Made by a program: the position numbers and the translations under genes. A stretch of 58,385 nucleotides of DNA from Desulfonatronum sp. (GTDB taxonomy: Bacteria > Desulfobacterota > Desulfovibrionia > Desulfovibrionales > Desulfonatronaceae), in the NCBI GenBank assembly GCA_011049455.1, contig DSBL01000005.1, positions 1 to 58,385 on the forward strand, in the 5' to 3' direction. Under the pieces are notes generated by a model. The model did not search any database and was not told where the DNA came from. It saw only the letters and a program-made list of their open reading frames with translations. Shown in pieces: positions 43,037 through 52,876 of the stretch (positions are counted from its first letter, which is position 1; each line of letters starts with the position of its first letter).

Positions 43037-45661
43037 CTACTCATGGGCTAGGGCCCAGTTGGCGCCAGCCCCCCAATCCACAGCCAGGGGGACCTTCAAC
43101 TTCGTTACGGACGACATCAATTCCTCCACTCGAGCCCCGACCTGCTCGGCCGTTTGCTCGGGCGCTTCCAATACCAATTCGTCATGCACCTGGAGAATCA
43201 TGCATGCCTGGAGATTTCTCAAAACCTGATCCTGGTGAACGCGGATCATGGCCATCTTGATCACGTCCGCGGCGCTGCCCTGGACCACGGTGTTGATGGC
43301 CATGCGCCGGGCGGCCTGGACTAAATTTTCGTTGCGCGAATGAATGTCCGGCAAGATCCGTCTGCGTCCGGCCAAGGTAAAGACGGCACCTTGCTGCTTG
43401 GCTTCATCCACGACCCGGTCGTAAAATTCCCGAACCTTGGCCAGTCTGCTGAAGTATAATGCAATAAAATCCTTGGCTTCCCGCAGGCTGATGTTCAATT
43501 CACGGCCGAGTTTTTGCGGACCCATGCCGTAGAGCAGTCCGAAATTGATGGTTTTGGCTTTACGCCGTTCATCCGTCGTTACTTGCCCGGGTTCCTTGGC
43601 GAACAGGATGGCGGCGGTGCCGGCATGAATGTCCGTGCCCTGCGCAAAAAGTTTAAGCAGATGCGGATCCTCGGAAAGATGGGCCAGAATGCGCAGTTCG
43701 ATTTGCGAATAATCCGCGCTGACCAGGTGATGCCCATGCGGTGCGGTGAAGCAGGCCCGCATCCGACGGCCATGGAGACCTCGGATGGGAATATTTTGCA
43801 GATTGGGGTTGCTGCTGGACAAGCGGCCCGTGGCTGTGGCCAGCTGATTGAAGGTGGTGTGCAGGCGGCCCGCGGCATCGGTCAATTTGGGCAAAGGCTC
43901 CAGGTAGGTGGAGCGCAGCTTCTCCAGTTTCCTGTATTCCAGGATCTTCGGGACAATGGGGTGGGCCGAGGCCAGTTTTTCCAAAACTTCATTGTTGGTG
44001 GAGCGGCCTCCGCCGGGTGTTTTGCGACCGGTCTTCAGACCCAGACATTCGAACAGAACCTCGGCCAATTGCTGGCTGGAGCGCAGGTTGAACGGTTTGC
44101 CGGCATGGTCAAAGACGGCTTGAGAAGCGCGCTTAAGATTTATGCGCACTTCATCCAGAAAGGCGTTCAGCGCATGCTGGTCAAGCATGATGCCGGCCTG
44201 CTCCATGTCCACAAGCACCGGGATGAGCGGCATTTCCAGACTGGTCAGAAGATTGCGGAATCCGGTCTGATTGGTTTTTTGTTCCAGAATCGCACCCAAA
44301 CTGAGCAGCAGCAAGGCCGGTAGATCCGAGTCAGACCGGTTTGGGATGTCAGGGAGTTCGTGTTGAAAGGCGCGGGCCAGGGAATCCAACCCATAGTCCC
44401 GCTCTGCGGGTTGGAGCAGGTAGGCGGCCAGGCTGACGTCGAAGCGGTGGTCCATGCCCACTTCGGCCCAGGCCGGGTTGGAATGGAGCAAATCCTTCCA
44501 GGAAAGGGCGATCACCAAGTCGGCGCGGCACAGTGCGCCGGCCAGGGCTTTCGTCGCCGCGGCCATGGTTTGATCTTTGGTGGCGGACCAGGAGCGCTCC
44601 GCGTTGTCGAACGCCAGACGCCATTCCTTTGCCTCGGGCCATATGGCAACCCGCTTGCCGGAAAAATCCGGCAACTCGGACAGTGGAATACGCGGGATGG
44701 CGGGGGAGGGCGAGGTCTTTTGCGCTTCAAGGGCTGGATTATCCGCGACAATGCGAGGAGATTGCGTGATTGCCGGCTTTGAATCAGGCAAGACTTCACG
44801 TACCAGGGATCGGAACTCATATTCCTGGAAAAATTGGCGCAATGCTTCAGCCTGCATGGGGCGGCAACGGTAGGCGGAAAGATCAGTGGCGGCATCCAGG
44901 TCCGTGCGAAGTCGGGTCAATTCGCGATACAGAAAAATATTTTCCAGGTTGGGGCTGATTTTTTTCAGCTCCTTGGGCGAGAGCCGGGCCATGCCGTCTT
45001 GCAGATCTTCCAGCCCAGGGAAGCGCTGCATCAATGCCTGGGCCGTTTTCGGGCCGATTCCGGGGATGCCGGGGATGTTGTCGCTGCTGTCGCCGACCAG
45101 GGCTTGATAGTCCGGCCATTGTTCCGGACGCATGCGAAAGGTTTGATCAAAGGATTCCAGGGTGATCAGCTTTTCATTTTTATGACCAGGATCCCAGATG
45201 GCCACGTTGCTGTCCAGGCATTGCAAGAGGTCCTTGTCCGAGCCGACAATGACCACCGGACGTTCCCGCTTGAAACGCGCACAGGCGCTGGCAATGAGAT
45301 CGTCGGCCTCCGTCCCCTCGGAAACCACGGTGGTCAAACCCAAAAGATCAACGCCCTGCAAAAGTGGTGCTATTTGTTTGATCAGATCCTCCGGGGCCTT
45401 GAGACGCTGGGCTTTGTAGGCGGGAAAACGCTTATGACGGAAGGTGGGACCGGGACCGTCCATAAAAAAGCCGGCATATGCGGGGCGTTCCTCGCGGCGG
45501 AGTCGCAAAAGCATGCGCAGCACGATGAACAGAGCGTTGGTGGGGAAGCCGTCGGAGCGTTTCAGGTCCGGGTAGGCATAAAACCCTCTGTATAAAAATG
45601 ACGTGCCGTCGATTAAAAAAATCGGATCCTTGTCCAAATTCAGGCGTTGGGCCAACAACAT
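43037..45661 (-). CDS. polA: DNA polymerase I
   Basis: An 874-residue Pol I for Okazaki fragment processing and repair. The 5' nuclease domain (residues 1-290) is complete (LIDGTSFLYRGF, GTEADDLIA, VGSDKDLLQ, GDSSDNIPGIPGIGPKTA). The polymerase domain is intact (DYSQIELR, RRKAKTINFGLLYG, QVHDELVLE). The middle domain keeps the fold but lacks the Exo I D-x-E motif (KRVAIWPEAKEW instead) and the Exo III Y-x-x-x-D, so proofreading should be absent, as in Taq and Bacillus enzymes. Starts 6 bp after the nrnA-like gene. Confidence 0.96.
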   Translation of the reverse strand: MLLAQRLNLDKDPIFLIDGTSFLYRGFYAYPDLKRSDGFPTNALFIVLRMLLRLRREERPAYAGFFMDGPGPTFRHKRFPAYKAQRLKAPEDLIKQIAPLLQGVDLLGLTTVVSEGTEADDLIASACARFKRERPVVIVGSDKDLLQCLDSNVAIWDPGHKNEKLITLESFDQTFRMRPEQWPDYQALVGDSSDNIPGIPGIGPKTAQALMQRFPGLEDLQDGMARLSPKELKKISPNLENIFLYRELTRLRTDLDAATDLSAYRCRPMQAEALRQFFQEYEFRSLVREVLPDSKPAITQSPRIVADNPALEAQKTSPSPAIPRIPLSELPDFSGKRVAIWPEAKEWRLAFDNAERSWSATKDQTMAAATKALAGALCRADLVIALSWKDLLHSNPAWAEVGMDHRFDVSLAAYLLQPAERDYGLDSLARAFQHELPDIPNRSDSDLPALLLLSLGAILEQKTNQTGFRNLLTSLEMPLIPVLVDMEQAGIMLDQHALNAFLDEVRINLKRASQAVFDHAGKPFNLRSSQQLAEVLFECLGLKTGRKTPGGGRSTNNEVLEKLASAHPIVPKILEYRKLEKLRSTYLEPLPKLTDAAGRLHTTFNQLATATGRLSSSNPNLQNIPIRGLHGRRMRACFTAPHGHHLVSADYSQIELRILAHLSEDPHLLKLFAQGTDIHAGTAAILFAKEPGQVTTDERRKAKTINFGLLYGMGPQKLGRELNISLREAKDFIALYFSRLAKVREFYDRVVDEAKQQGAVFTLAGRRRILPDIHSRNENLVQAARRMAINTVVQGSAADVIKMAMIRVHQDQVLRNLQACMILQVHDELVLEAPEQTAEQVGARVEELMSSVTKLKVPLAVDWGAGANWALAHE

Positions 45662-45667
45662 GGAGAA

Positions 45668-46660
45668 TTATCTCCTTGGGAGGCGGGATTTGCAGGAGCG
45701 GAGGCGTTCCCAGACAAATTCCTCGGGACTGTTTTCCGCGAGGGCTTCCAGAGGAATTTCAGCCCTGGCCATGGTCGCGTGACCTCCGGCCGACCCTATG
45801 TCGTCGAACAGGGCCGAAGCAATTTGGCCCATGTCCTTGCGCAGACCGTCGCCCCGGAAAATCAAAACCAGGGTGTCGTTGTAGATGCCGCAAGCCAAGG
45901 TCCAGGAGATGCCATAGACCCGTAAGAGGAAGTCCGCCAAAATGACCAGGATGTCCGGCGAGTCCAGTTGCCCCATGAATACGTGCAGACAGTCGCGGGA
46001 GACGCGCAGCTTTCGAAAGGCCAGGGAAAAATATTTCAACCACTCCAGCCGGAATTCGCTACGGGAGATCTTGCGCAACAGGGAGTGGTTGGCGAATCGG
46101 CTTAGATAACGGAAGGCGCGGACGTCAGAGTCCAGAAATTGGCGCTCAAAGCTCTGGGTATCGGTCTTGATGCCGTAGAGCAGGGCTGTGGCCAGCAGTT
46201 CGCCGGGACGGATCTTGAGGCTTTGCAGATATTCCGTAAGCAGGGAACTGACCGCGCCGTAGGCAGGCTGAATTTCCACGAATTCGGCCTGCACCGGGTA
46301 CTGTTCCGACAAGGGGTGATGATCGAAGACCAGGCTGAAGTCGTATCCCTGGAAACCGGAGTGATGATGGGGCTGGGAATCAACCAGGGCGAAACGATCA
46401 TACTGGGCCGCGACGTTGGGCGTCAATCGCTGCACAGGAATGCGCAGGGTTTTGATCATGGTCAGGTTGTCCGGCCGGGAGATCTCGTTGACCTGGGCGC
46501 AGTCCACGGCAGCCACGCGCCGGGCCATGATTCTGCGCAGAGCCATGGCCGAGGCGAGAGCGTCGGGATCGGCGTTCATCATGATCAGCCAGCGGTCTGT
46601 CTTGCGCAGCAACCCAAGCAGTTGACTGGTCCGGGCTTCCAGTGCTCTGATGGAGGCCAT
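45668..46660 (-). CDS. DHH-family phosphoesterase, NrnA-like (oligoribonuclease / pAp phosphatase)
   Basis: A 330-residue DHH/DHHA1 protein. The DHH motif (VFDHHP), NADPDALASAMAL (metal-binding Asp), the DTQSF loop and the C-terminal GGHATMARAEI glycine motif of DHHA1 define it. NrnA members degrade nano-RNA and pAp. ATG at 46660, preceded by AAGGGGGG; the longer frame to 46699 overlaps cobU and is unlikely. Six bp before polA, one bp after cobU. Confidence 0.88.
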   Translation of the reverse strand: MASIRALEARTSQLLGLLRKTDRWLIMMNADPDALASAMALRRIMARRVAAVDCAQVNEISRPDNLTMIKTLRIPVQRLTPNVAAQYDRFALVDSQPHHHSGFQGYDFSLVFDHHPLSEQYPVQAEFVEIQPAYGAVSSLLTEYLQSLKIRPGELLATALLYGIKTDTQSFERQFLDSDVRAFRYLSRFANHSLLRKISRSEFRLEWLKYFSLAFRKLRVSRDCLHVFMGQLDSPDILVILADFLLRVYGISWTLACGIYNDTLVLIFRGDGLRKDMGQIASALFDDIGSAGGHATMARAEIPLEALAENSPEEFVWERLRSCKSRLPRR

Positions 46661-46661
46661 T

Positions 46662-47174
46662 TCAGGATCCCCCCTTGAGTCGCATGGTCTGACCGGCAAC
46701 CACCAGCAGAACCTCCTGGGCCAATGCGGCTACTTCTTGATTGAGCAGGCCCAGGGAGCGAACAAAAGCCCTGCTCTGGGCGGCCGCCTGAAGGGGCCCC
46801 AGACCAACTTCCAGGCTGACCATGATCAGGTCGATGGGCAGACCACTATCGAGCAGTTCCAGCAGATCGGATTTGCGGGCGTGTTCCTGTTTTTTTTGGA
46901 TGCAGGAAAACAGCCAGAAATCCAGGCTGTCCACGAGGATCGTCCCCCCTTGGGAAGCTTCGTCACGCAACACGCGAGCCAGATCCACGTCCGACTCCCT
47001 GACCGGGATGTGCGGCGGCCGGTTTTTACGATGCGCATTGATCCGGCGGCGCATTTCCATGTCCTGGGCCACGGCCGTGCCCACGAATGCATGCGGTGCC
47101 GGGGATTGCTGAAGATACTCAAGGGCTGTGGCTGATTTTCCGGATTTTTCTCCGCCCAGGATCAAGGTGATCAT
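46662..47174 (-). CDS. cobU: Adenosylcobinamide kinase / adenosylcobinamide-phosphate guanylyltransferase
   Basis: A 170-residue CobU, which phosphorylates adenosylcobinamide and then adds GMP to give AdoCbi-GDP for nucleotide-loop assembly. The P-loop GGEKSGKS (7-14), RRRINAHRKNRP with guanylylated His48, and a LVDSLDFWL Walker-B-like segment are plain. Its ATG overlaps the stop of the upstream cbiR gene (ATGA, 47171-47174), so the two are translated together. Confidence 0.92.
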   Translation of the reverse strand: MITLILGGEKSGKSATALEYLQQSPAPHAFVGTAVAQDMEMRRRINAHRKNRPPHIPVRESDVDLARVLRDEASQGGTILVDSLDFWLFSCIQKKQEHARKSDLLELLDSGLPIDLIMVSLEVGLGPLQAAAQSRAFVRSLGLLNQEVAALAQEVLLVVAGQTMRLKGGS

Positions 47175-47965
47175 ACGCAAGCCATTTCCCAATCGTGCAA
47201 TACGGTTAATGATTCCAGAAAAGCATTGGGGCTGAAGACCTCAAGCATCAGGACGCAATCCTGGTTGGCTTGGGCCAGGAGGCCTTCCAGGCGTTTTCGG
47301 CCTGTTTGGTCCAAGAGCCGCAAAGAGCGGTGTTCACCCGCTGGCCCCGGCGCGCTGAGGTGAAGCATGCCCACGTGCGGCCAGATTCCTGGTATTTTGT
47401 CTGTTTTCTGGGAAAAAGCCAAGAGATGACCCAGATCAAGGCATATGCCCACGCCGAAATACCGTATCAGGGGCCACGCCGCAACGAGGTCGTTGTCCCT
47501 GATATTCTCCAGCAACAGCTTCGTGGCCGGTCTTGCTTCGTTCCAGAGGGCTATAAAAAGCCGGAGCTTTTCACAGGCGTGAGGAGTCGTTATCCGGTTT
47601 TGCGGTTCCGGGCAAACCCGGATGGGGGGCGGATGCAGGACGACGGCCCAGGGTTTGAGAAAAGCACACTTGCTCAGTAGAGCGATGGCTACTTCCAATA
47701 CAGCCTCGGGGCTTTCCTCCCAAGGCAGATTCAAGGGCAGGTGAACATGAAACCGCAGACCTAGACGCGCCAGTAAGAGAGGCAAATCTTTTTCCGTATA
47801 GGCCAAGCAGGAGTCGGTTTCAAAAAAAAGCAGACCCACCTCGGAAACCATGCTGGCCAAGCGATTGCAGTTTTCGGCGATGTCCGCGGGCCAGACGAAT
47901 GAAGGCGCGGCAATGGTCCGCAGGCGTTTTTGGCGCATGACGTGGTTGCTCTGCTTGTACCGCAT
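47171..47965 (-). CDS. cbiR: Cobamide-remodelling phosphodiesterase CbiR-like (TIM-barrel)
   Basis: A 264-residue TIM-barrel protein of the xylose-isomerase-like superfamily. The segment SFVWPADIAENCNRLASMV and the HVHLPLNLPW, VLHPPP, LLLENI and ICLDLGHLLAF metal-type motifs fit CbiR, the enzyme first described in Akkermansia that hydrolyses a cobamide to adenosylcobinamide-phosphate, so that a new lower ligand can be fitted. The ATGA coupling to cobU, whose product uses exactly AdoCbi-P, strongly supports this role. The start may be 47965 or the in-frame ATG at 47938. No cobalamin riboswitch (no B12 box) is visible upstream. The assignment rests on recalled motifs plus context. Confidence 0.75.
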   Translation of the reverse strand: MRYKQSNHVMRQKRLRTIAAPSFVWPADIAENCNRLASMVSEVGLLFFETDSCLAYTEKDLPLLLARLGLRFHVHLPLNLPWEESPEAVLEVAIALLSKCAFLKPWAVVLHPPPIRVCPEPQNRITTPHACEKLRLFIALWNEARPATKLLLENIRDNDLVAAWPLIRYFGVGICLDLGHLLAFSQKTDKIPGIWPHVGMLHLSAPGPAGEHRSLRLLDQTGRKRLEGLLAQANQDCVLMLEVFSPNAFLESLTVLHDWEMACV

Positions 47966-48251: not shown

Positions 48252-48295
48252 AAATTTTTAACAACCGATCACATTTGCCTGCCAGCGAGTTTTGG

Positions 48296-48442
48296 ATGCG
48301 AAACATCCGGTTGTATTTTCAGCACGTTTTCAACCCATTGCACGTCTACTGCCGTCTGCGTCAAATCGGGATGGAAACCGCCAGCGCGCAACGAGTCTGC
48401 TTCGTCTACGAACGCTACGTCTATCGCATTCTCAAATTCTGA
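48296..48442 (+). CDS. 48-residue basic small protein under the sigma-54 promoter
   Basis: An ATG at 48296 opens 48 codons to a TGA at 48440. The product is basic and aromatic (Arg, Tyr, Phe), has HVFNPLHVYCRLRQIGM in its first half and a VCFVYERYVYRIL helix at the end, and lacks a membrane span or signal peptide. I recall short proteins with a similar FNPLHVYCRL core in Desulfovibrio-type genomes, but could not check. The weak GCGAG element upstream is the only ribosome-binding signal. Supported mainly by its position 44 bp after a sigma-54 promoter and by its protein-like composition. Confidence 0.55.
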   Translation: MRNIRLYFQHVFNPLHVYCRLRQIGMETASAQRVCFVYERYVYRILKF

Positions 48443-48568
48443 CTTTCCCAGCACAGCCTTGGCGTCATGCCTGGCCCTCGTGGAATAATCACGGGGCATT
48501 CCGGAGACGTGCGTAAGATGTCTCGCCGCGGGATCGCCTTGAATGTTGGCACGTGAGGACATGGTCTA

Positions 48569-48753
48569 GGCGAATCAACCATTCGCCACAGCACATCGTT
48601 CTGGAGCCGGCTGTTATACGCAACGTCGTAAAACTTTGCGTATGCAGGTGACAGGACGTCACCCCGACGATCGTGGGATCGTCGAGAGGCCAACGGAAAA
48701 CCGCGCTTTTCCGTTGGCCGAAACGTCGAAAATACAGGACGGATTTTCGACGT
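48569..48753. repeat. Cluster of six perfect inverted repeats
   Basis: Six non-overlapping perfect hairpins in 185 bp: 48569-48587 (7-bp arms, loop 5), 48616-48643 (8, loop 12), 48647-48663 (6, loop 5), 48665-48684 (8, loop 4), 48688-48719 (13, loop 6), 48723-48753 (11, loop 9). All arms were checked base by base. A weaker stem with one G-U pair lies at 48476-48496. The last reaches the stop of the helicase gene on the minus strand. No T-runs flank them. The 310-bp stretch 48443-48752 holds no other gene. Possible roles: 3' end structures for both convergent transcripts, a structured RNA from the sigma-54 promoter, or a recombination site. Confidence 0.75.
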
Positions 48754-51700
48754 CATGTATAACAAGTATCATCCGGGAAAAGCGGAATGCGTTTTTCCAG
48801 GCGCACGATCTGGTGGATGACCTTGCTGCAGTGCATGTCTTCTCGCGGCAATCCCTGCAAAAAACGAGACGGCTTGAGTCGCAGGTTGCGGCCAAAAAGG
48901 ACGCGTTTTTCGGCGTGGCTCAGAAAAAGCAAGCGCTTGGCCCTGGTCATTCCGACATAGAAGAGGCGGCGCTCCTCTGCCTCGTCAGTTTTGGAGTCCA
49001 TGGCCATGGACTGGTTTCCGAGGATTTCCAGACCGGCCATGGGCAGCAGTCCATCTTCCAGGGCCGGGAGAAAAACGGCCTCGAACTCCAGCCCTTTGGA
49101 GGCGTGGATGGTCATTATTTGGATTTTTTCCGAGCGTTGGCGGACCAGTTCCAGTTCGGACTGAAAATGTATCCAGGAAAGCAGTCCTGTCCAGCCTTTG
49201 TGCTTGGCATAGGCCTCTTTGAGCTGCAAGTATTCCCGGCTTTGCCAGAACAGGCGGTCAAAGGGGGGCACATCCTGGAGATAGCCGGCAAGGCCGACTG
49301 GACCTTGCACCAAAATATGTTCTGGACAATGCAGTCCGGAAACATCCTTGTCCGGTCCCAGTCCGAGAAGACTGGACGCGGCCTGGAGCAAGATCGCGAT
49401 CCTGGGCTCTTTCCAGAAGGGTTCGGCTTCGGGGGCGCAGCTGGGCAGACCCATGCGGTGCAGGGTCTGCAGAATCTGGGGAATCAATGGTTTCATTCGT
49501 ACCAGAACGGCGATGTCACCGGGGCCGAGTTCCCCGCGCAGTCCCTGGTCGGCCTGCCAGTGAGCGGTCCCGCCCAGAAGTCCTCGGATTTGTTCTCCAA
49601 TCCAGGCGGCTTCCCGTCCCGAGGTGGACGCTTGAAAAAGGGAAATCCGTCCTTCCTGGACTGAGTTGGCTTGCGGCAATGGATCCTCGGGAAACAAGGA
49701 AGCTGCGACATTGATCAGGTTTTGGGTCGAGCGGTAGTTGACGCGCAACGGGATGATTTCCAGGTTGTCCCACTGGGCCTGGAGCTGCTCGGAAAGCCCC
49801 TGAAGCGCACCTCTGAAGCCGTAAATGGATTGTTTCGGATCGCCGATGGCCCAAAAGCCGTTGCCCTTTCCCGGTGTCAGAGCCTTGAGCAGTTCCCATT
49901 GCAGCGGGGAGAGGTCTTGGGCTTCATCCACGAGGACATGCGTGTACGGCTGCGGAAAATGACCGCCGGATGTCTGCTCCAACCAGAATTCCAAAAGATC
50001 CGTATAGTCGGCCAGATTCCAGTTCTGTTTTTGCCTGGAAAATTTTTGGGCGTATTCGGAAAGTTCTTCGGGGAGATTTCTCGTTTCCCTGGCCCGGGAG
50101 AGATCCGTCCACAGGCTTTTCATTTTGGCAGTCGAAAGGCTCGGGTTGGCAACGGAGAAAACACGCCGCGCTGCGTCTTCCGACAACAGGACCGGTGCCT
50201 CACCCTGGGTTCGCATCCAAAATTCATAAGCCATGGCATGCAGGGTGTCTGCATGAGGCAAAGCCTCGTTTTCCCCCTGGATGTACAGGAGACGGTCACG
50301 CAGTTCATTGGCCGCCCGGCGGGTAAAGGTGACCACCAACAGGCGGCGGGGATGGTCTCCCCTTTTGAGCAGGTGTACAATGCGACCCATCAGGGTTCTG
50401 GTCTTTCCCGTGCCCGGTCCGGCCAGGACAAGGACGGGATGGGGCCCGGCCTGGAGAGCCTGGATCTGTTCCTGGTTAAACGTCAGATGCTGGGCTTCCT
50501 GGGTGGATTCCGGCAATGCAGGAGATTGTTCAAGGATTCGGGCGGACTTGTGTTTTATGCATTCAGGGCCATGCCCAGGAACGTAAAAGAGGCGTCCATG
50601 CCGAAGTTCGTCCAGCTCCCTGGAACTGAACATGGAAATTTTTCCATAGTGGCCGTCATAGCCGGGTTGGCGTACGATCTGCCCTTGACGCATCCGGCGC
50701 AAAGCCTCGGCCAGCAATGGATGTGAGCTTTCCAGGACGTCCACCGGCACGTCCCCAAGAACAGCCAGTTCCGGACCGAACGCAGCCAGAATGCGGGCGT
50801 ATTCCTGACGAACCTTTTTTGTGCCTGGTCCTGTTCCGACAATCTCCGCGAGAAGTTCGGTCAATGGAACCAAGGATAAAAATCCCGGAGAATGCAAAGG
50901 TTTCTGGGGCTGATCCCTGTCCGCCAGTTCGAGCACTCGATGCAGAACACCCAGGGTCAACGGTTGGCCGCACACCGGGCAGATGTTTTTTTTGGCGATG
51001 GATTCTTGGGGATCAAGCACTACTCCGCACTTGCGGTGTCCGTCCAAATGATACTTACCTTCTTCCGGGAAAAATTCCACGGTGCCCAGAAATTTGTGGC
51101 TGAGGCCCTGGCCGCGCAAGGCCCGATAAATACCCTCGAAACTGGGCTCACCGCTGAAGAGATTGGCCTCCCGGGCCAATTTTTCCCCGGAATGGGCGTC
51201 GGAATTGGATATCAGGCGGCATCGATCAAGGGCGCTCCACATCCAGTTCATGTCCGGGTCGGATGAAAGGCCGGTTTCCAGGGCGAAGATTTCTGAAGCC
51301 AAATCGCCGTAGCATTCCTCGATGGAATCGAAGCCTGACTTGGAGCCAAAGAGCGAAAACCAGGGTGTCCAGATGTGGGCCGGCACGAGAAAGGCCAGGG
51401 GATCGGTCAGCAGGACCATTTCCAGCAGATGCCGGGAGTCCAGTCCCAGGATGGGACGGCCATCCGAACTCAGGTTGCCTATTTGCGCCAGCTTGGTATT
51501 GAGCGCCCGAGCCTGCTCCAGTCCCGGAACATAAACCAGGTGGTGCACCTTGCGCACCTTTCCGGCCCGCTTGTAAATGGTGCTGATTTCCGCGGAAAGC
51601 ATGAACCGTACGCGGCCCTGGGGCGGACTTTTCTGGAGCCACGGGATTTCAACGGCAGCAGGTTGCGGATGTTTCAGGGTCAGCAGGCCGGTTTCATCCT

Positions 51701-51881
51701 GTTCCAAGGCATCTTCCAATTCACTCAACCATCCAGGATGGGTGAAATCCCCCGTGGCCACGACATCAAGTCCCTTGATCTGGGCCCAGGCCGCAAGATG
51801 CTCCGGAGTCAGACTACGGCTGGTGGCTCTGGAGTGTCGGGAGTGGATGTGCAGATCAGCGCGGAAAAGGTCTTGGCCCAT
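48753..51881 (-). CDS. EndoQ-like PHP nuclease fused to a UvrD/PcrA-type SF1A helicase
   Basis: A 1042-residue fusion. Residues 1-430 match the EndoQ (endonuclease Q) family, which nicks DNA 5' of deaminated bases (uracil, hypoxanthine, xanthine): PHP metal motifs DLHIH (His11, His13), TGDFTHP (Asp45), SAEIS (Glu98), PAHIWTPW (His169), SNSDAHS (Asp228), and the EndoQ zinc motif (Cys285, Cys301, Cys304 with CPVCGQPLTLGVLHRV). From about 465 a complete SF1A helicase follows: Q-motif FNQEQIQAL, Walker A AGPGTGKT (487-494), TFTRRAANELRDR, VDEAQDLSP, GDPKQSIYGFRG, VNYRST, TIHASKGLEFE and VGMTRAKR. The start at 51881 (ATG) has no Shine-Dalgarno sequence but fits the family N-terminus. Follows a MogA-like gene by 103 bp. 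The fusion suggests nick-and-unwind repair of deaminated DNA. Confidence 0.92.
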   Translation of the reverse strand: MGQDLFRADLHIHSRHSRATSRSLTPEHLAAWAQIKGLDVVATGDFTHPGWLSELEDALEQDETGLLTLKHPQPAAVEIPWLQKSPPQGRVRFMLSAEISTIYKRAGKVRKVHHLVYVPGLEQARALNTKLAQIGNLSSDGRPILGLDSRHLLEMVLLTDPLAFLVPAHIWTPWFSLFGSKSGFDSIEECYGDLASEIFALETGLSSDPDMNWMWSALDRCRLISNSDAHSGEKLAREANLFSGEPSFEGIYRALRGQGLSHKFLGTVEFFPEEGKYHLDGHRKCGVVLDPQESIAKKNICPVCGQPLTLGVLHRVLELADRDQPQKPLHSPGFLSLVPLTELLAEIVGTGPGTKKVRQEYARILAAFGPELAVLGDVPVDVLESSHPLLAEALRRMRQGQIVRQPGYDGHYGKISMFSSRELDELRHGRLFYVPGHGPECIKHKSARILEQSPALPESTQEAQHLTFNQEQIQALQAGPHPVLVLAGPGTGKTRTLMGRIVHLLKRGDHPRRLLVVTFTRRAANELRDRLLYIQGENEALPHADTLHAMAYEFWMRTQGEAPVLLSEDAARRVFSVANPSLSTAKMKSLWTDLSRARETRNLPEELSEYAQKFSRQKQNWNLADYTDLLEFWLEQTSGGHFPQPYTHVLVDEAQDLSPLQWELLKALTPGKGNGFWAIGDPKQSIYGFRGALQGLSEQLQAQWDNLEIIPLRVNYRSTQNLINVAASLFPEDPLPQANSVQEGRISLFQASTSGREAAWIGEQIRGLLGGTAHWQADQGLRGELGPGDIAVLVRMKPLIPQILQTLHRMGLPSCAPEAEPFWKEPRIAILLQAASSLLGLGPDKDVSGLHCPEHILVQGPVGLAGYLQDVPPFDRLFWQSREYLQLKEAYAKHKGWTGLLSWIHFQSELELVRQRSEKIQIMTIHASKGLEFEAVFLPALEDGLLPMAGLEILGNQSMAMDSKTDEAEERRLFYVGMTRAKRLLFLSHAEKRVLFGRNLRLKPSRFLQGLPREDMHCSKVIHQIVRLEKRIPLFPDDTCYT

Positions 51882-51984: not shown

Positions 51985-52776
51985 TCATGCGGCGCAGTCC
52001 GAAGAGTCGCCCTGCAATTTGTCCAGGGCATGGGCCAGGGCCGGGAGGAGTGCTTCCAGGTTTTCGGAAACTGCCTTGGGGGATCCTGGAAGAGTAATGA
52101 TCAGGCTTTGCCCCAGTGTGCCGGCCACGGCCCTGGAAATGACCGCGTGGGGCGTCTTGGTCAGGGAGGCCAGAAGCATGGCCGTTTCCATGCCCGGAAG
52201 GCGTTTGTCCATTATGGCCAGACACGTTTCCGGGGTCTGGTCGCGTGGACCGACTCCTGTTCCGCCGGTGGTGATAATCAGGTCAAAGCCTTGCTCCAGG
52301 GCCAGTTCTCCCAGAAGAGAGCGCAGGCGGCCGGGATCGTCAGGAAGGAGAAAACCTTGGGTCAGGCTTAAAGACAGGGCCTTGCCGATCAGTTTCGCAA
52401 TCAGCGGACCGGCCGTGTCTTGGCGTTCTCCGGCATAGCCCTTGTCGCTCAGGGTGACCCAGGCCAGAGTCGTCCCTTCTTTGCACACGTCCAAGCGCAG
52501 GCCTTGAGGGCCCACCTGCAGGGTGGTCCGGGATTCGACCCAGCAGCCTTCCAGGCAGGGTGCACCGTTTTCCCCGGGCCAGCGAAAGCGGGAGAGGGCC
52601 TGCAGGGCCTCTCCCAGATCAGGATGAGTGAATACTGTTCCCACGCGGGGCAGGGGTGCATCGTCCGCCAGAAGATAGCGACATGCGCAGCGGCTTGGCG
52701 GTTTGCCCCAAAAAACGGGGCATCTTTGTCCAGGCGCAAGACTATCGTGCTGAGTGGACAAAAGGGTCAAGGCCAT
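51985..52776 (-). CDS. MogA/MoaB-family molybdopterin adenylyltransferase-like protein with Cys-rich N-terminal extension
   Basis: A 263-residue protein. Residues about 105-260 are MogA/MoaB-like: AWVTLSDKGYAGERQDTAG, IITTGGTGVGPRDQTPE (the GGTG loop), and LPGSPKAV. These proteins act in molybdenum cofactor synthesis. The first 100 residues carry at least six Cys (RCPVFWGKPPSRCAC and CLEGCW) and have no family I know. The ATG at 52776 has GGAG 8 bp upstream and is preferred to a GTG at 52794. Sulfate reducers need Mo/W cofactors for formate dehydrogenase, which fits. Confidence 0.85.
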   Translation of the reverse strand: MALTLLSTQHDSLAPGQRCPVFWGKPPSRCACRYLLADDAPLPRVGTVFTHPDLGEALQALSRFRWPGENGAPCLEGCWVESRTTLQVGPQGLRLDVCKEGTTLAWVTLSDKGYAGERQDTAGPLIAKLIGKALSLSLTQGFLLPDDPGRLRSLLGELALEQGFDLIITTGGTGVGPRDQTPETCLAIMDKRLPGMETAMLLASLTKTPHAVISRAVAGTLGQSLIITLPGSPKAVSENLEALLPALAHALDKLQGDSSDCAA

Positions 52777-52876
52777 GTCTTGCTCCACCCGCACGGCATA
52801 GCCTGTCGGGGGTGTTTCGGGGGATCAACAGCGATGCATTTCCCCTGGGAACAGTTCAATCAGGGTGCCGGGCGGT

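Follow-up and report, generated by a model that had tools for sequence, protein, structure and literature searches.

Characterised endonucleases Q (EndoQ) cut DNA on the 5' side of a lesion (PMC4357722, PMC6202378), and homologues have been listed in Bacillus and Desulfovibrio (PMC4357722, PMC8438529), in the latter since 2015 (PMC4357722). For the course of EndoQ repair after the nick, removal of the cut strand by a helicase, left unnamed, was already drawn as one option in the model of Shiraishi 2015 (PMC4357722). Here we describe a 58,385-nucleotide stretch of DNA from Desulfonatronum sp. (assembly GCA_011049455.1, contig DSBL01000005.1; order Desulfovibrionales, phylum Desulfobacterota), hereafter the window, in which a single gene encodes an EndoQ-like nuclease followed by a UvrD-type helicase. 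This fusion names a candidate for the partner activity, which becomes testable within one protein.

Several known systems share part of this arrangement. AddA, RecB and AdnAB also carry a superfamily 1A (SF1A) motor and a nuclease in one polypeptide, but there the nuclease is of the RecB type, lies at the C-terminus and serves double-strand ends, whereas the fusion has a putative lesion nuclease of the PHP type at its N-terminus. In Gabija (GajAB) a nuclease likewise works with a UvrD-like helicase; these are, however, two proteins, with a nuclease of the OLD/TOPRIM type and the patchy distribution of a defence system. The window has no gajA next to a stand-alone GajB: its helicase shares a polypeptide with EndoQ, and those neighbours that could be annotated are housekeeping genes. 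In the alternative excision repair started by endonuclease V (EndoV) or UV-damage endonuclease, the strand is incised next to the lesion and no glycosylase is needed, as we propose here, but these enzymes have unrelated folds and no fused motor, and EndoV cuts 3' of the lesion.

An EndoQ homologue in the Desulfovibrio group is already known. What is new is a fusion of single origin in at least 21 family-level groups, its near-universality in Desulfovibrionales, the scarcity there of uracil-DNA glycosylase (UDG) and EndoV, and a gene string ending in polA; the fusion joins known enzymes in a conserved, single-origin combination. We found no description of a helicase fusion of EndoQ in the literature text (mostly open papers, figures excluded); the domain drawings in Figure 9A of PMC4357722 may include a long protein. 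The main text of a Desulfovibrio vulgaris transposon-fitness paper makes no mention of a helicase or of DNA repair.

The initial annotation, made from the sequence without database searches, had read 48753-51881 as an EndoQ-like nuclease and a UvrD-type helicase in one polypeptide, and the open reading frame, phmmer, profile models and structural overlay all bear this out. Among solved structures, PfuEndoQ (5zb8/7k30) is the top phmmer match of the N-terminal half (E ~1e-59, residues 8-417), with ~34-36% identity, and UvrD, PcrA and Rep are the matches for the remainder. Consistently, the NCBIfam and Pfam models for UvrD-helicase, UvrD_C and PcrA/UvrD/Rep match residues ~465-1027. In an AlphaFold model built from 43 fused sequences (mean predicted local distance difference test score, pLDDT, 86.5), residues 4-435 superpose on PfuEndoQ with Z 47.0 and a root-mean-square deviation of 2.4 over 391 aligned residues, and residues 467-1020 superpose on Rep with Z 40.3. 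The whole architecture is kept in these 43 fused homologues, which are 36-82% identical to the window protein, and this excludes chance. An assembly artefact is ruled out as the source of the fusion, as many independent genomes carry the same single frame. In the closest relative (L010, 6001-9465) ~112 additional residues separate the EndoQ and helicase halves, and the Walker A motif lies at residue 604 instead of 487.

The N-terminal half shares with the described EndoQs (PfuEndoQ, PDB 5zb8 and 7k30-7k33; Bacillus pumilus EndoQ) the full-length fold, the metal ligands, the base pocket and the position of the zinc domain; its activity is predicted. All eight PHP metal positions are filled in the alignment, H11, H13, D45, E98, H113, H169, D228 and H230 corresponding to PfuEndoQ H8, H10, D42, E76, H84, H139, D193 and H195, in agreement with the claim that the first ~430 residues carry every PHP metal motif. 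In PfuEndoQ, E76, H84 and H139 are reported to bind zinc and to be indispensable for cleavage, and H139, G169 and S171 to exclude normal thymine and adenine (PMC8307549). Their counterparts E98, H113, H169, G204 and S206 are invariant in 43/43 fused proteins, and H169, G204 and S206 are also invariant in all sampled stand-alone homologues. The zinc tetrad of EndoQ (positions 249, 252, 268 and 271), which comprises four Cys in the archaeal enzyme, is here His-Cys-Cys-Cys; the initial annotation had therefore placed the zinc site correctly, but not its first ligand, which is His in every homologue of the phylum with a readable column, fused or stand-alone.

The catalytic residues had been judged intact on both halves, and those that we checked are conserved in the 43 fused homologues. 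The sole departure among the EndoQ and helicase residues is D228N in one fused relative (L080, 6161-9283); it coincides with the D-to-N difference of PDB chain 7k31, and the nuclease of this relative is possibly inactive or altered.

Both an HMM search of each half and a survey of the domain pair had been suggested as checks. In the first, UvrD models match the C-terminal half as expected, whereas the NCBIfam EndoQ model TIGR00375 gives the fusion protein only 170 bits, under its curated cut-off of 326.6, a threshold reached by 0/199 genomes of the order and 0/395 sampled across the phylum. As a consequence, automatic annotation sees a 'UvrD helicase' alone. The EndoQ assignment nevertheless survived a preset comparison with other PHP families, since no PolX- or HisK-type family scores better and the sole other PHP match is CehA/McbA, at 18 bits.

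The C-terminal half had been described as a full SF1A helicase, and rightly so: the Q motif and motifs I, II, III, IV, V and VI are all present, the helicase residues checked are all invariant in the 43 fused proteins, and in the AlphaFold model residues 461-1031 adopt the two-RecA-domain fold with UvrD-type insertions, with Z ~40 to Rep, PcrA and UvrD. In spite of these common features, it falls far under the equivalog cut-offs of its relatives (198 bits against 911 for PcrA, 188 against 1144 for UvrD), has shorter 1B and 2B segments, and belongs to a clade apart from the PcrA/UvrD of the same genome.

The survey of the domain pair, run within the phylum, confirmed that a single frame encodes the two halves in members of 21 family-level groups (43 fused loci read, inside and outside the order). 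In Desulfovibrionales, EndoQ is present in 193/199 sampled genomes and in 43/43 genera, almost always fused, and in the genome of the window the single TIGR00375 gene is the fusion gene. Nearly all matches listed for the order lie in frames of ~980-1400 codons; six are shorter, at 420-791 codons (G066, G071, G123, G149, G186 and G191). The phylum-wide sample gave a TIGR00375 match in 255/395 genomes, mostly in two classes of frame, stand-alone (~410-480 codons) and fused (~950-1170 codons). The nearest named relative is from Desulfonatronaceae bacterium UBA663, with 82% overall identity. EndoQ had been considered an enzyme of archaea and a few bacteria; with a homologue in 238/378 genomes of the phylum outside the order, and Desulfovibrio listed since 2015 as noted above, this can no longer be upheld, and EndoQ is common, not rare, among these bacteria. 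Four genomes of one family (f61: G298, G499, G516 and G569) have 2-4 weak TIGR00375 matches each, which may reflect a gene in pieces or a PHP family present in several copies.

In a tree of the EndoQ half, all fused proteins plus one stand-alone form one clade (bootstrap 100; Shimodaira-Hasegawa-like approximate likelihood ratio test, SH-aLRT, 97). In a tree rooted on PfuEndoQ, this clade sits inside the stand-alone EndoQs of the same phylum. In the helicase tree, the fused helicases are separate from the clade of the genomes' own PcrA/UvrD (99) and are divided by a single branch from every free helicase, with a support of 86 that is suggestive and comes from a tree omitting two long-branch rows, one of them RecB-like, which had broken the group in an earlier tree. 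Multiple independent fusions are thus ruled out for the EndoQ half, and the helicase tree agrees more weakly. The simplest history would be one fusion, then vertical descent with at least one loss of the helicase. A phage or plasmid origin was rejected: no match was found in phages or plasmids, and viral contigs gave helicases only.

The stand-alone protein inside the fused clade (L067, the same as L122 6753-8045, G533) lacks a helicase gene in the flanking DNA that was read, apparently reflecting a secondary loss of the motor. Among the loci of 9-15 kb that were read around stand-alone EndoQs, none showed a neighbouring helicase gene. One genome of the sister group with a stand-alone EndoQ has a free UvrD-like helicase of 544 aa (L156, G545:C1) that groups with the fused helicases and not with PcrA/UvrD, and is a possible relative of the unfused ancestor.

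These data suggest that the fusion is probably a chromosomal repair enzyme for DNA with deaminated bases or abasic (AP) sites, whose motor acts at the nick. The EndoQ half would flip the lesion (uracil, hypoxanthine or an abasic residue) outwards and cut the bond directly 5' of it, so that the lesion would come to lie at the 5' terminus of the downstream strand, and the UvrD-like half would then load at this nick, onto the intact strand. SF1A motors translocate 3' to 5', so that on the intact strand the motor would run away from the new 3'-OH and displace the damaged strand, which would become a 5' flap. Judging from what is known of these families, this geometry would suit DNA polymerase I (PolA), which has both the polymerase and the 5' nuclease called for after a 5' incision: it would add nucleotides to the 3' end and remove the flap before ligase seals the strand. 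We infer in this way the lesion specificity, the ATP-driven unwinding from the protein's own nick, the direction of the flap and the hand-over to PolA.

The initial annotation had gone further and proposed an alternative to glycosylase-initiated repair. UDG is present in 54/199 genomes of the order (several matches weak) against 352/378 genomes of the phylum outside it, and EndoV in 4/199 against 170/369 elsewhere in the phylum; these contrasts are large, but related genomes are not independent and p-values are not to be taken at face value. A UDG-superfamily search of the window's own genome gave no match. Poor genome quality is unlikely to explain the absence of UDG, since HhH-GPD glycosylases were found in 101/101 genomes of the order. 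The scarcity of both enzymes lends indirect support to an alternative route, and the fusion may explain how these sulfate reducers cope with uracil although UDG and EndoV are missing from most genomes of the order. In its broadest form, which we put forward tentatively and regard as somewhat doubtful, the fusion would be a self-contained incision-repair motor, a single polypeptide able to locate a deaminated base, cut on its 5' side and start unwinding where it has cut. It would have originated once, among the ancestors of many Desulfobacterota families, and in Desulfovibrionales it would have replaced both UDG and EndoV as the chief protection from deamination.

A number of observations weigh against the proposed repair role of the fusion. 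The order retains HhH-GPD glycosylases throughout and exonuclease III (ExoIII) in 92/101 genomes; the scarcity of UDG and EndoV is therefore not a general loss of repair genes, but an HhH glycosylase, or ExoIII with uridine activity, could handle uracil or hypoxanthine there. Outside the order, fused EndoQ and UDG coexist, so that the fusion is not simply a UDG substitute, and a general role of EndoQ in replacing UDG is unsupported there, EndoQ being present in 5/26 UDG-lacking genomes. With respect to the motor, the proteins of the order have lost ~27 residues relative to free PcrA in the segment that holds subdomain 1B and ~60 in that of 2B, and unwinding may therefore be weak or altered, while the arrangement of the EndoQ half relative to the helicase half is unreliable in the AlphaFold model (predicted template modelling score, pTM, 0.56). 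Finally, the string that ends in polA includes cobalamin and molybdopterin genes and is thus not a dedicated repair operon, which makes synteny with polA weak functional evidence.

Among other explanations, the one that fares best, although we consider it unlikely, is that both halves work, but not in a coupled manner at the same lesion: EndoQ would be a nuclease for AP sites or deaminated bases and the motor a scanner delivering it to DNA, for example by translocating along single-stranded DNA in the wake of forks or together with RNA polymerase. The long disordered linker (residues 430-462), the shortened 1B and 2B segments and the distinctness of the helicase half from PcrA/UvrD would suit such a scanner, as would the ability of PfuEndoQ to cut uracil- or hypoxanthine-containing single-stranded DNA as well (PMC11354406); a single ancient fusion with both active sites intact, however, fits tight coupling at least equally. 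It is less probable still that the substrate has changed, and that the EndoQ-fold nuclease recognises another lesion or structure within a structure-specific nuclease-helicase. The 170-bit score, far under 326.6, and the ~34-36% identity to PfuEndoQ could be taken in this sense, but stand-alone relatives score equally low, and the pocket residues H169, G204 and S206 do not vary in any sampled homologue, fused or stand-alone. A Gabija-like defence protein directed at DNA that is foreign or modified, for instance phage genomes with uracil, is very improbable: PADLOC GajB models do match the helicase half (best 201 bits) and a defence role has been suggested for Bacillus EndoQ (PMC8307549), but any UvrD relative gives such matches, the EndoQ half matches no defence family, phages and plasmids gave no match, viral contigs gave helicases only, and the gene is inherited vertically, occurs in nearly all genomes of the order and is set in a housekeeping string.

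In 17/19 loci read in Desulfovibrionales, the fusion gene has a DHH phosphoesterase gene and polA downstream of it on the same strand, usually with cbiR and cobU between; outside the order the string is not retained. In the window, cbiR and the cobU-like gene (46662-47965) form a small cobamide cluster adjoining polA that is conserved across the order. The coordinates of all features are collected in the table.

Table. Position and supporting evidence of the fusion gene, its domains and key residues, and its neighbours in the window.
Feature	Position	Strand	Evidence
EndoQ-UvrD fusion gene, 1042 aa	48753..51881	-	Open reading frame from ATG to stop; conserved in 43 fused sequences
EndoQ half, residues 4-435 (PHP nuclease, zinc-binding and C-terminal domains)	50577..51872	-	PfuEndoQ E ~1e-59; Z 47.0, 391 aligned
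PHP metal residues H11, H13, D45	51747..51851	-	Align with PfuEndoQ H8, H10, D42; invariant
E98, H113, H169 (equivalents of PfuEndoQ zinc ligands E76, H84, H139)	51375..51590	-	Invariant in 43 fused proteins
G204, S206 (base pocket, equivalent to G169, S171) and D228, H230 (metal)	51192..51272	-	Alignment
Zinc-site ligands H282, C285, C301, C304	50970..51038	-	Invariant alignment columns
Disordered linker, residues 430-462	50496..50594	-	pLDDT <50
UvrD/PcrA-like SF1A helicase half, residues 462-1023	48813..50498	-	UvrD-family models; Z ~40 to Rep, PcrA, UvrD
Walker A motif AGPGTGKT, residues 487-494	50400..50423	-	Invariant or nearly so
Motif II DEAQD, residues 652-656	49914..49928	-	D652, E653, D656 invariant
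Molybdopterin adenylyltransferase-like gene, upstream of fusion	51985..52794	-	PF00994 98.9 bits; same strand in 12/19 order loci
cbiR (cobamide remodelling), conserved string	47171..47965	-	NF041277 187 bits, above cut-off
cobU-like gene, conserved string	46662..47192	-	NF004469 127 bits, under cut-off 161
DHH-family phosphoesterase gene, conserved string	45668..46699	-	PF01368 28.7 bits
polA (DNA polymerase I, includes 5' nuclease domain), last gene of string	43037..45661	-	TIGR00593 813.9 bits; same place and strand in 17/19 order loci

The spacer directly downstream of the fusion gene, toward cbiR (48330-48760, minus strand), contains at least five consecutive perfect or near-perfect hairpins (DNA fold z -4.1). 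It has no match in Rfam or among plasmids, and blastn found the hairpin part in no relative's spacer. A block adjoining the hairpins (48267-48460) is conserved at 69-73% over 99-198 bases in the sister loci L010, L085, L086 and L087, and weakly in L076, and represents a candidate coding or RNA element.

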